From Rhizobium sp. Q54 (GTDB lineage: Bacteria > Pseudomonadota > Alphaproteobacteria > Rhizobiales > Xanthobacteraceae), in the NCBI GenBank assembly GCA_945861895.1, contig CAMAWF010000011.1, positions 1-62,848 on the forward strand: a stretch of 62,848 nt of DNA, given 5' to 3'. This document shows, one piece after another, positions 17,847-39,524 of the stretch (the stretch's first letter is position 1; every line of letters begins with the position of its first letter). The notes beneath the pieces were generated by a model, which worked only from the letters and a program-made list of their open reading frames with translations, did no database searches and was not told the DNA's origin. Position numbers and translations under genes: made by a program.

Positions 17847-17960
17847 GTCATGCCCGGGCTTGACCCGGGCATCCATGAAGCACTGCCGCTCGGGAAACCT
17901 TTCGTAACATCAAGCTCGTGGAAATTCATCATGGATTGCCGGGTCAAGCCCGGCAATGAC
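17847..17960. repeat. Intergenic palindromic repeat, family C (two hairpins)
   Basis: Two inverted hairpins of the GTCATGCCCGGGCTTGACCC...GGTCAAGCCCGGCAATGAC type. Copies occur at 18493, 20674, 26775, 33924, 39494 and 52199. Read as protein it gives the spurious peptide [10 protein letters not shown], which explains false N-terminal extensions. Confidence 0.85.
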
Positions 17961-18492: not shown

Positions 18493-18607
18493 GTCATGCC
18501 CGGGCTTGACCCGGGCATCCATGATGCATTGCGGGTGGCGATAGCCTTACGTTGGCCTGATGTTGCTGAACGTCTTCATGGATTGCCGGGTCAAGCCCGG
18601 CAATGAC
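18493..18607. repeat. Intergenic palindromic repeat, family C (two hairpins)
   Basis: Inverted pair of the GGGCTTGACCCGGGC hairpin unit downstream of dsrE. Confidence 0.85.
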
Positions 18608-20673: not shown

Positions 20674-20763
20674 GTCATGGCCGGGCTTGGCCCGGCCATC
20701 TCGATTAGGTGGCCAGGGCAGCGCGATCCTTATCGGGATTGCCGGGCCAAGCCCGGCAATGAC
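20674..20763. repeat. Intergenic palindromic repeat, family C (two hairpins)
   Basis: Inverted hairpin pair GTCATGGCCGGGCTTGGCCC...GGGCCAAGCCCGGCAATGAC just upstream of mnmE, ending 9 bp before its start. Confidence 0.85.
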
Positions 20764-26774: not shown

Positions 26775-26862
26775 GTCATGCCCGCGCTTGTCGCGGGCAT
26801 CCACGTCTTCCAAGCCAAGAATGATCAAAAACGTGGATGGCCGGGACAAGCCCGGCCATGAC
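26775..26862. repeat. Intergenic palindromic repeat, family C (two hairpins)
   Basis: Inverted hairpin pair between the convergent parB and holA genes; probably also acts as a bidirectional barrier to transcription. Confidence 0.8.
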
Positions 26863-26894: not shown

Positions 26895-27926
26895 CTAAGC
26901 TTCGCGCCGCCGCGCATTCACCGCCAGCGACAACAACGTGCGTTGCGCGATGGCCTCGGCCAGCCCCGGCTGGCGGCGTGTTTCCAGCGAGGCGTCGGCG
27001 AGCTGCTCCATCGCGCGCAGCAGCCGCGACGATGTCCAGCTTCGCAGCGCGGCCTCCACCAGCGGCTTGCGGCGAAAATGAATCGGCGGCGGCACGCTGT
27101 CGATCGCGGATTCGGCGCCCTCGCCCTCGTCCACCGCCATTCGCATTTTGTGCAGTTGCGCGACCTGGCGCAGCGCCGCCGAGACGATAGCGCCTGGGCT
27201 TGAGCCGCCGGCGCGCGCCTTGCCGAACTGGTTTTCGACTTCGGCCGTTTTTCCGGCAAAGGCGGCATCGAGCACGCCGTTGAGCACAAGCTCGGACGCA
27301 TCCGCCACCACCGCAAGCACGTCGTCGAGCTCGACGCGGGTTTTGCCTTGCGTGTAAAGCGCGAGCTTGCGGATTTCGTTGCGCGAGGCGAGGCGGTCGC
27401 CGCCGATCAGCGCCAGCAGCGCGCTGCGCGCATCGGGCGCCAGCGTCAGTTTGGCCTCGCGCATTTCCTCGTCGATGATGCGCGCAAGGTCGCGCTCGCT
27501 GTCCGCATAGCAGGCGATGACCGCGGCGGATTTCGCCTTTTCGCAAATCGCGCGCAGCGGCGCGCTGCGCTTGAGGTCGCCGGCCTCGATGATCACGCGG
27601 CAGTCGGGGGAAGGCGAGGCGACCAGAGTTTCCACGGCGGAGGCTATATTGCGCGCGCCGGCCTTGACCCAGACCGCGCGGCGGCCGCCGAACAACGGAA
27701 TCGTGTTGGCCTCCTCGACGATGCGCGCGGGATTGCCGGCGAGATCGGCGTCCTCGATGCGCGCGAGCGCAAACGGGTCGGCGGGATCGTCGACCGAAGC
27801 ATTCACCAGCGCCGTCACGCGCTCGCGCACCAGCCCGGCATCGGGGCCGTACACCAGCACGACCGGCCGCGCCGGATCGGGCCGCGCGATAAATTTTTCG
27901 ATGTCGGCGCCTTTGAGGGCGGTCAT
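26895..27926 (-). CDS. holA: HolA, DNA polymerase III delta subunit
   Basis: 343 aa. The N-terminal half reads VVLVYGPDAGLVRERV, and a conserved block NPARIVEEANTIPLFGGRRAVWV follows; both fit HolA. Delta opens the sliding clamp as part of the clamp loader. It is the last gene of the leftward leuS-lptE-holA operon, 42 bp after lptE with a small palindrome between. Confidence 0.95.
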   Translation of the reverse strand: MTALKGADIEKFIARPDPARPVVLVYGPDAGLVRERVTALVNASVDDPADPFALARIEDADLAGNPARIVEEANTIPLFGGRRAVWVKAGARNIASAVETLVASPSPDCRVIIEAGDLKRSAPLRAICEKAKSAAVIACYADSERDLARIIDEEMREAKLTLAPDARSALLALIGGDRLASRNEIRKLALYTQGKTRVELDDVLAVVADASELVLNGVLDAAFAGKTAEVENQFGKARAGGSSPGAIVSAALRQVAQLHKMRMAVDEGEGAESAIDSVPPPIHFRRKPLVEAALRSWTSSRLLRAMEQLADASLETRRQPGLAEAIAQRTLLSLAVNARRREA

Positions 27927-27968: not shown

Positions 27969-28538
27969 TTACGACCCGGCGACGAAATAAGACGCCAGGC
28001 GCGACCTGATCTGATCGGAGATTACCTTGGCGGCGCGGTTCTCGGCGTCGCGCAATCCGCGCGCACGGGCAAAGCGCTGCTGCTGGCCGGGAATGTCGTA
28101 GGAGACGCGCGAAAAGGTCTGGCCTTTCATCACGGTCTTCCCCGTCGCCAACTCGACCAGCGAGTAGCTCGCATCGATGCCGTAGTTCTGGATATCCGGC
28201 CGCGAGGTGTGGATGTCCACGATCACCGACAATGTGGTCGAACCCAGGCTGATATTCAACTTGTGCGTTGGCGAAGTCGCCGCACCGCCGCCGGTCAGAT
28301 CGAAGATCAAACCGTTGCGGACTTCGACGCCGACGCGCGCGAGCGGGCTGCCGTTCGGCGCATTGGCGACATCGATCGGCACCACCTGGATGCCGCTGAG
28401 GGCATCGCGCATTCCCGGTCCGCCGGTGGTCGAACGTTCGCCGTAAAGCGGCTGGAAGCAGCCGCCGGCAAGTGCCGCGACCGCAAGGGCGAGGGCGAGG
28501 CGGGTGAGCGCCCGTGCGCGTTTGCTAGGCCACCACAT
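27969..28538 (-). CDS. lptE: LptE, LPS-assembly lipoprotein
   Basis: 189 aa. The signal peptide ends at the lipobox LAGGC, giving a lipidated Cys at about residue 27, followed by FQPLYG, typical of LptE. The fold pairs with LptD in the outer membrane to insert lipopolysaccharide. The start overlaps the leuS stop by 14 bp, and leuS-lptE-holA is a known conserved order. Confidence 0.93.
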
Positions 28539-31299
28539 TGACGATCCTTTGCGGGACGACGATGACCTTTTTGGGACGCTTACCGCCGAGCGCTTGTTTT
28601 ACCGCATCGAGGGCCAAAACGGCAGTCTCAATGTCGGCTTTTCCAGCGTCCCGGGCGACGGTCACGTCGGCGCGCTTCTTGCCGTTGATCTGTACCGGCA
28701 GGGTTATGGTGCTTTCAATCAGTAATTCAGGCTCGATCTGAGGCCAGGCCTCGGTCGCCACCAGCGTTGTGTGGCCAAGCGCCGCCCAGCACTCCTCGGC
28801 CAGATGCGGCATCATCGGGTGGAACAGCCGGACCAGGATGTCGGCGGCTTCGCGCATCGCCCAGGCCAGATCGGGCGGCAGCTTTTCCGATTCGATGTCG
28901 CCGATGGCGTCGCCGAGCGCGTTGGCGAACTCATAAATATGCGCGACGCAGACGTTGAAGTGCAGCTTCTCGATGGCGTCCGACACTTTGGCGAGTGCAC
29001 CGTGGGCGGCCTTGCGAACCGCGAGCGCCGGTTCGCCGAACGCGGCCGGCCGCGTTACCGGCGCCGATTTGCCGATCTCCGCGGCTTCGCCCGCAAGCCG
29101 CCAGAGCCGCTGGGTGAAGCGCCAGGCGCCCTGCACGCCTTGTTCGGTCCAGTTGACATCGCGGTCGGGCGGCGAATCCGAAAGCATGAACCAGCGCGCG
29201 GTGTCGGCGCCGTAGCTGGCGATGATGTCGTCGGGATCGACAGTGTTCTTCCTCGACTTCGACATCTTCTCGATGCCGCCGATTTCGATTTTCTCGCCGG
29301 TGGCGATCAAGCTGGCGCGGCGGTTGTCTTCCGTACCCTCAACTTTCACCTCGGCCGGCACCACCCATTCGCCGTCCGCCTTGCGATAGGTCTCGTGCAC
29401 CACCATGCCTTGCGTGAACAGACCGGCGAATGGTTCGTCGATGCCGGCATGTCCGGTCGCTTTCATCGCGCGGGTGAAGAAGCGCGAGTAGAGCAGATGC
29501 AAAATCGCGTGCTCGATGCCGCCGATGTATTGATCGACCGGCAGCCACGCATCGATCATTTTACGGTCGGTCGGCGCGGTTGCGATCCAGGGATCGGTGA
29601 AGCGCGCGAAATACCACGAGGAGTCCACGAAGGTATCCATCGTGTCGGTCTCGCGCCGCGCGGGGCCGTCGCACCTCGGACACTTGACGTTTTTCCAGGT
29701 CGGGTGGCGGTCGAGCGGATTGCCCGGCTTGTCGAAGGTGACATCTTCGGGAAGCGTGACCGGCAAATCCTTTTCCGGCACCGGCATCACGCCGCACTTT
29801 TCGCAGTGGACGATCGGGATCGGACAGCCCCAGTAGCGCTGCCGCGAGATGCCCCAGTCGCGCAGGCGGTAGTTCACCTGGCGCTGAGCGACGGGGCGGT
29901 TCTCTTTCGTCGCTTGCGCCGGCCTCTCCGCTCCCTCCCCCTGAAAGGGGGAGGGTCGGGGTGGGGGTCTCATCGAGTCGCTGACCCCCACCCGGCTCGC
30001 TTCGCTCGCCGACCTCCCCCTTTCAGGGGGAGGTAAGAAAGTGGTTTCCAGCCGCTTCGCCACCTCTTCCTTTGCCTGTTCGATGGTCATGCCATCGAGG
30101 AACCGCGAATTGATCATCCGCCCGTCGCCGTCATAGGCGGTGGTGGTGATGACGAAAGTCGCCGGGTCCTGGCCCTCCGGGCAAACCACGGGCGTGGCGC
30201 CGAGACCGTATTTGTTGACGAAGTCGAGGTCGCGCTGGTCGTGCGCGGGACAGCCGAAAATCGCGCCGGTGCCGTAATCCATCAAAATGAAATTGGCGAC
30301 ATAGACCGGCAGCTTCCACGCCGGATCGAACGGATGGATGGCCTTGATGCCGGTGTCGAAGCCGAGCTTCTCGGCTTTCTCGATGGCTTCCTGCGCGGTG
30401 CCGATCTTTTTGCATTCGGCGATGAAGGCCGCGAGCTTGGGATTTTTTGCCGCCGCCGCCGTTGCCAGCGGATGATCGGGCGCTACGCCCACGAATTTCG
30501 CGCCGAACAAGGTGTCGTGACGGGTGGTGAAGATATCCAGTTCGCTCTCGCTACCGGGCGAAGTTTTCGCATCGAGCGCGAAGCGCAGCAGCAGGCCTTC
30601 CGAGCGGCCGATCCAGTTGCGCTGCATCAGCCGCACTTTTTCCGGCCAGCGGTCGAGCTTGTCGAGCGCATTGAGCAGGTCTTGCGAATAATTGCTGATC
30701 TTGAAAAACCATTGCGTCAGCTCGCGCTGCTCGACCGCGGCGCCCGAGCGCCAGCCGCGGCCTTCGATCACTTGTTCGTTGGCGAGCACGGTGTGGTCGA
30801 CCGGGTCCCAGTTCACTTTCGATTGCTTGCGCTCGACCAGTCCTGCTTTAAGAAAGTCGAGAAACATTTTCTGCTGATGCTTGTAGTAGGCCGGATCGCA
30901 GGTCGCGATCTCGCGGCTCCAGTCGAGCGACAGCCCCATGGATTGGAGCTGTTTCTTCATCGCCGCGATGTTGTCATAGGTCCATTTTTTCGGATGCACC
31001 TTGCGGTCGATGGCCGCGTTTTCCGCCGGCATGCCGAAGGCGTCCCAGCCCATCGGATGCAGCACCTTGTGCCCCATGGCGCGTTTGAAGCGCGCGACCA
31101 CGTCGCCCATGGTGTAGTTGCGCACGTGCCCCATGTGGATGCGCCCGGACGGATAGGGGAACATCTCCAGCACGTAGTATTTTGGCCTGGGGTCGTCGTT
31201 TTTGGTTGCGAAGATGCCGCGCTCGTCCCACAGCTTCTGCCAGCGCGGCTCGGCGTCGTGGGCGTTGTAGCGCTCGTTTTTGCTCGAATCGGCGGTCAT
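28525..31299 (-). CDS. leuS: LeuS, leucyl-tRNA synthetase with an in-frame palindromic insert
   Basis: 924 aa from the ATG at 31299; an ATG at 31332 would add 11 residues. The HIGH motif is [16 protein letters not shown], the editing-domain region holds [13 protein letters not shown], and the KMSKS motif is [27 protein letters not shown] follows the editing domain. Between KRLE and [10 protein letters not shown] a segment of roughly 43 residues (about 417-460) is encoded by a palindromic repeat; relatives join these parts by a short linker. The frame is kept, so the enzyme is probably active. Confidence 0.95.
29933..30034. repeat. Palindromic repeat (family D) inserted in leuS
   Basis: Two palindromes, CCCTCCCCCTGAAAGGGGG at 29933 onward (to 29955) and ACCTCCCCCTTTCAGGGGG at 30012 onward (to 30034), are arranged as inverted arms with inner GGTGGGGGTC/GACCCCCACC. 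The element is translated as part of LeuRS. Confidence 0.85.
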
Positions 31300-31385
31300 T
31301 TCCGGCTGTTTTAGGGCCGGCGGACCAGACATGAAAGGGGTTTAAGGGTCAACGGGCGGCCTGCAAGCCTGCAACCTGTACCCTG

Positions 31386-33923: not shown

Positions 33924-34036
33924 GTCATTGCCGGGCCTGACCCGGCAATCCATGATGCCGCTTGATATTTAGCGGCCTTACGTATGAATTCCCGGATCGC
34001 AGTTCATCATGGATGAACGGGTCAAGCACGGGCATG
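33924..34036. repeat. Intergenic palindromic repeat, family C (two hairpins)
   Basis: A GTCATTGCCGGGCCTGACCCGGCAA hairpin and a degenerate inverted partner between yggS and the methyltransferase gene. Confidence 0.75.
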
Positions 34037-39493: not shown

Positions 39494-39524
39494 GTCATCC
39501 CCGGGCCAAGCCCGGGGATGATGG
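39494..39524. repeat. Intergenic palindromic repeat, family C (single hairpin)
   Basis: GTCATCCCCGGGCCAAGCCCGGGGATGAT hairpin between lolA and xthA. Confidence 0.75.

Follow-up and report, generated by a model that had tools for sequence, protein, structure and literature searches.

Short palindromic repeats are not confined to the spaces between genes. In the accessible part of a survey in BMC Genomics (2013, PMC3733652), REPs of the GTAG and CGTC super-families are reported inside open reading frames of many species, often in genes of DNA synthesis and repair including uvrA and in some tRNA synthetases, and two Xanthomonas species carry different REPs at about the same site of recB. A sequence-only reading of this DNA gave Rickettsia as the main known source of in-frame palindromic elements, which is therefore too narrow. 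Because in-frame REPs are already on record in that part of the survey, the element described here, a palindromic repeat translated within leuS, the gene for leucyl-tRNA synthetase (LeuRS), belongs to a known kind; the surprise is the reuse of one loop, rather than the single insert.

The insert in leuS

In the window, the whole stretch of 62,848 nucleotides that was analysed, a palindromic repeat lies in frame inside leuS (Table 1). In the product, Pfam recognises the editing domain PF13603 (residues 238-429) and PF00133, the class I synthetase domain, which places the insert where the editing domain meets the catalytic core, as the sequence-only reading had it. That reading also gave the gain as about 43 residues with the frame kept, and the comparison agrees: 48 residues separate VAKRLE (LE being residues 428-429) from NRPVAQRQ (from residue 478), where insert-free relatives have 5, and the frame is open over all 935 residues. 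The best solved relative, the LeuRS of N. gonorrhoeae (6q89), aligns to residues 19-431 and 483-934 and has 3 residues of its own between the two parts. Among the six frames of the insert, the coding frame is the only one without stops. Since any given frame stays open in 40% of mononucleotide shuffles, this openness is weak evidence when taken alone. An assembly artefact is an unlikely source of the insert and was rejected, because similar inserts occupy the same site in other genomes.

Table 1. Coordinates of leuS, its insert and further hairpins in the window.
Feature	Position	Strand	Remarks
leuS, leucyl-tRNA synthetase, host gene	28525..31332	(-)	935 aa, single open frame
Inserted segment, residues 430-477	29902..30045	(-)	Replaces the 5-residue loop of insert-free relatives (comparison with relatives)
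Palindromic element proper, CTTTCTTACCTCCCCC to GGGAGGGAGCGGAGAGGCCGGCGCAAG	29913..30041	(-)	Ends judged by eye from other copies
First hairpin	30012..30034	(-)	Exact inverted repeat, 10-bp arms, loop 3
Small hairpin GGCGAGCGAAGCGAGCC between the outer hairpins	29994..30010	(-)	Read from sequence; partly paired in the predicted fold
Central inverted repeat	29960..29992	(-)	Arms 29983-29992 and 29960-29969 (GGTGGGGGTC / GACCCCCACC); paired in predicted folds
Second hairpin	29933..29955	(-)	Exact inverted repeat, 10-bp arms, loop 3
Hairpins of a different type (ATGGCCGGGCTT..CCCGGCCAT and relatives)	17850-17957, 18496-18604, 20677-20760, 26778-26859, 33927-33949, 39495-39521		Several occur in pairs
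Strong hairpin TTCCCTCTCCCC..GGGAGAGGGAA	27936-27962		Between ORFs 26895-27926 and 27969-28538

The two exact inverted repeats and the multicopy nature of the DNA justify the earlier description of the segment as REP-like. The window holds 18 inverted repeats with arms of at least 9 and loops of 2-8, both leuS hairpins among them, and two of the 18 have longer arms (11 and 12). In the predicted RNA fold the first hairpin is paired with the second, the two closing a single long stem. The RNA of positions 29900-30050 is predicted to fold at -88.7 kcal/mol; 200 dinucleotide shuffles averaged -61.7 kcal/mol (sd 3.9), which puts the real sequence at z -6.9, and none of them was as stable. Eight sequences were folded separately, namely seven LeuRS inserts (the present one and six of the 14 read as DNA, see below) and one UvrA insert, with z from -4.3 to -8.3 versus shuffles. 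A search of positions 29800-30150 against Rfam gave 19 matches up to E 1, all far below gathering scores and mostly to microRNA models.

An AlphaFold2 model of LeuRS (37 rows; mean pLDDT 83.3) matches the solved LeuRS 7nu8 with a TM of 0.77 by query length. Residues 439-476 score under 50, and the insert is modelled as a loop that connects helix 417-430 with strand 482-488. Raised at the outset as a possible surface loop, the segment is thus, in the model, a disordered loop between the editing domain and the catalytic core. Codon positions were compared in six pairs drawn from four inserts of the same genus and repeat type (type A, below). First, second and third positions differ 49, 58 and 51 times in the inserts (hand sums; the pairs are not independent), and 140, 119 and 430 times in the flanks of the same pairs (122 + 126 codons), the usual third-position excess. 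A pair involving G014, whose insert is of another type, was left out of these sums (22/27/25). The even spread within the inserts suggests either that the peptide is under no visible selection or that the inserts are separate copies, and both fit a passenger.

Recurrence at the LeuRS loop

In the family, 376 of 391 genomes match LeuRS, and 12 of them, our own genome (G000) included, span the insert in one alignment. With six more genomes that have extra residues at the site (G040, G330, G286, G405, G003 and G272), the carriers number at least 18 of the 376, under eight genus codes; three others, G396, G282 and G255, whose loop is just a few residues longer, were counted as insert-free. An alignment that spans the site is in itself no proof of a palindromic insert, but 15 of the 18 are recognisably palindromic and of at least two unrelated kinds, 14 having been read as DNA by eye and that of G405 by its peptide. 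Spanning alignments favour in-frame cases, so the count of in-frame inserts is biased. Most same-genus relatives whose loop was read have the short loop without insert, as had been anticipated from the sequence.

The palindromic inserts fall into four types. Type A, the kind found here, occurs in G000, G036, G022, G011, G045 and G150 (the G150 insert has long G runs, where misreading is possible), type B, with CTCTCCCCGC stems, in G122, G238 and G082, and type C, with CCCTCCCC stems, in G040, G330, G405 and G014. These three have a common layout and may form one superfamily. The CGTCCCCGC type of G086 and G107, CGTC-like by eye, is clearly distinct from them. The insert of G286 resembles a remnant, and those of G003 and G272 are unassigned as to type. 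Type B and the CGTC-like type have 12 to 61 matches in their host genomes. In one clade (L175, L153, L176 and L178) the loops form a series from a short repeat (RPLPNPPPQAGEGRVGAVGERQ) down to still shorter ones (RALPGEGRLAPVGERQ), reminiscent of stages of decay.

A class-wide search (364 of 385 genomes matching) gave no other match spanning the LeuRS insert among the matches listed; two class-level candidates (L304 and L305) were rejected as ordinary divergence upstream of the loop. In a collection of named genomes, one of 79 LeuRS of usable length has an insert of at least 7 residues at this loop; it belongs to a proteobacterial MAG (L072), and its insert reads identical to that of G122. Across 140 LeuRS rows, inserts of 30-57 aa occur at this loop only, internal ones elsewhere reaching about 20 aa, apart from one 51-aa N-terminal extension. 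The LeuRS of G014 (L035) has about 20 extra residues near its N terminus, ending in SRSPQGEAG, which are perhaps a further repeat remnant. In the open-licence literature we found no earlier report of recurrence at one LeuRS loop across genera.

A quick LeuRS tree (LG+G4, SH-aLRT) was computed with the loop cut out, from 60 rows: seven named relatives and, for each labelled genome whose LeuRS was long enough, a single row, with fragments (e.g., G034 and G008) and duplicates omitted. The 18 insert rows call for 14 changes between presence and absence, and starred branches enforce 10 of these. When the labels were shuffled 500 times, the number was as low in 77 cases, so the carriers cluster no more than shuffled labels do. 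The row nearest to G000 is G020, which lacks the insert (99). To judge from these sequences, the pattern fits several landings, helped by recombination.

The alternative to repeated landing is a single ancestral insert, either inherited and often lost or spread as one allele by recombination. We consider it unlikely, while giving it some weight. The 14 changes may mix gains and losses. Moreover, a right flank SNNAPV is common to G036, G022, G011 and G014, which belong to the same genus but form no single clade in the LeuRS tree; some of the inserts were thus probably spread by recombination, which would leave fewer independent landings than carriers. The same is suggested by G011, which differs from its close relative G013 only up to about 15 codons away from the insert and is there, on the right side, nearer to G022 (83%) than to G012 or G013 (74 and 69%). 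However, different repeat kinds occupy the LeuRS site, and the insert-free loops keep one form (KETRGNRPV and near variants), including those of Rhodoplanes and Bradyrhizobium, which precise losses would need to restore. In addition, the inner hairpin of the G011 leuS copy is, by eye, of the sub-type of the other four copies fetched from that genome. The four fetched G036 copies are also of this sub-type and the G036 leuS copy is not (by eye). A comparison of nearest copies does not discriminate on origin, as its 51 cores were chosen by likeness to the G000 leuS insert and missed the G036 leuS copy and a few others.

The repeat elsewhere and a second site in UvrA

That the repeat occurs elsewhere, as the sequence-only reading proposed, holds for its own genome (3.77 Mb in 194 contigs, 99.77% complete): BLAST gave 37 matches to the region, itself included, which were merged by hand into 31 places with leuS. 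The copies have a common 5' end, TTTCTT(T/C)ACCTCCCC, conserved over about 7 bases in 25 unit starts (leuS included), and tails of the form GAGAGGC..GC are similar in several copies of related genomes. Many copies are head-to-head dimers with variable inner hairpins and centres (by eye). The repeat type of leuS (the TTTCTTACCTCC family) has 4 to 80 matches in each of eight related genomes. Neither a GTAG nor a CGTC tag is common to the 25 unit starts taken with 16 bases before the stem, where a pyrimidine run precedes ACC (by eye). At the junctions of the LeuRS inserts, up to about 5 codons of the old loop are replaced and no target-site duplication, such as a MITE would leave, is evident (by eye). 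A short palindromic repeat in many copies, in frame in a conserved protein and missing from most homologues, the element is an intragenic REP, broadly defined. PF01797, the RAYT domain of Y1 transposases, had no match at E 0.001 in G000, and 10 of the 21 genomes searched have one (5 of 14 among the control genomes); a transposase may nonetheless be present elsewhere in the population. In a Bradyrhizobium-like genome (G330, L246) the Y1 transposase domain matches fourteen times with one and the same score, which may reflect a recent IS expansion.

Further in-frame copies in G000 were found by script among 29 fetched repeat loci, with genes named by Pfam. They lie in UvrA (L021), twice in the GlyS beta subunit (L024 and L025), in the HrpB helicase (L014) and in a UDG-superfamily protein (L012), where the copy is ahead of the UDG domain. 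The earlier picture of a repeat in an essential enzyme is right as far as it goes but incomplete: the site is reused in the family, and G000 alone has five or more further in-frame copies in conserved genes. The two places in the glycyl-tRNA synthetase GlyS (G000:C72) were searched within the genus, with 41 matching genomes per search including our own, and each insert is spanned in one other genome, the first in G014 and the second in G025. A third repeat-like peptide, AGLDPAIH..VKPGHDGG, occurs in GlyS just before the second insert site. In the five in-gene copies compared, the palindromes are intact and changes are coordinated in both arms, which fits young insertions and also selection on the hairpins.

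UvrA matches in 373 of the 391 family genomes, of which 53, including our own, span the G000 insert (hand count), so inserts are commoner at the UvrA loop than at the LeuRS loop (53 of 373 versus at least 18 of 376). Thirty loci were fetched (L192-L221), and in the 28 that were read, each from a spanning genome, the loop after the interaction domain carries at least three kinds of repeat-type peptide, in one case at half length (by eye; the DNA was viewed for five and one was folded). This second site supports loop tolerance as the common cause.

A probable tolerated passenger among known repeats

We think it quite probable that the insert is a translated and tolerated passenger, a mobile repeat sitting in leuS at a loop that takes up additional residues without damage. 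The repeat, two REP-like units of about 60 bp joined head to head into a palindromic dimer, would have landed in leuS, or been copied there by recombination, in the loop that leads out of the editing domain into the catalytic core. It would then be transcribed and translated together with leuS, giving a peptide rich in Pro, Gly, Ser and Arg that would remain a disordered loop in an enzyme that still works. The peptide is thus presumably made and harmless, the insert being tolerated because its length and frame left leuS open and the peptide, as modelled, stays disordered. Both the LeuRS and UvrA loops are struck repeatedly in this family, presumably because they belong to those sites of housekeeping genes at which tens of extra residues are harmless and because the genomes are full of such repeats, and the hot spot would reflect tolerance, not target preference.

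The hot spot could instead be a DNA target, with an element-specific enzyme preferring leuS and uvrA sequences. The same place is indeed used repeatedly, and the left junctions lie within a few codons after LE, but unrelated repeat kinds use the sites and one specificity for all of them is unlikely. The negative Y1 transposase search of G000 at E 0.001 and the in-frame copies in unrelated genes also speak against such a target, which we judge improbable. A function of the hairpins has an equally slim chance: mRNA structure at a domain border might slow the ribosome, giving the editing domain time to fold first, or tune the level of LeuRS. Consistent with this are the position of the insert at such a border, the stability of all eight folded inserts far beyond that of their shuffles and the joint changes of the arms. 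Nevertheless, good folding is expected of any palindromic repeat, most same-genus relatives whose loop was read lack the insert, and inserts occur in the same genome in UvrA, GlyS and HrpB and ahead of the UDG domain. A bolder version, to which we give little credence, takes domain borders in the family's housekeeping proteins, those after the editing domain of LeuRS and after the interaction domain of UvrA, as fixed landing pads on which unrelated repeats land, turn over and decay while the protein stays intact, the hairpins being kept as mRNA structure that aids folding or controls the enzyme. That the insert is absent from the protein, because ribosomes skip it or it is cut out, is scarcely credible: bypassed segments in other systems do contain strong intragenic hairpins, but skipping would need neither that the coding frame be the only stop-free one of six nor that the insert-bearing LeuRS read be open and in frame, as they are.

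If the insert is a tolerated passenger, such repeats perform a natural insertion scanning, marking loops of essential enzymes that can absorb tens of additional residues. Where more than one repeat kind has hit the same site in different genera, tolerance, target choice and function can be told apart, a question that the earlier survey of intragenic REPs left open. For annotation, it is also a warning that repeat-encoded peptides are to be expected in core proteins of such genomes.

Among known systems, Br-REP1 and Br-REP2 of Bradyrhizobium (PLoS One 2016, PMC5082802) are likewise high-copy palindromic repeats of related bacteria; their consensus differs by eye, and in the accessible part of that paper they are described in 3' untranslated and intergenic regions. 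The palindromic elements of Rickettsia (RPE), cited in PMC3733652, are similarly palindromes translated in frame in conserved proteins, a likeness by description, and in contrast to the RPE hosts the genome studied here, at 3.77 Mb, is not reduced. Closest are the REPs of PMC3733652 itself, which, as far as that part of the survey describes them, are also short palindromes, often head-to-head dimers, intergenic and sometimes in frame within open reading frames. The leuS element departs from them in its start, which lacks the GTAG or CGTC tag, and in occupying a LeuRS site that is common to eight genera and to more than one kind of repeat.
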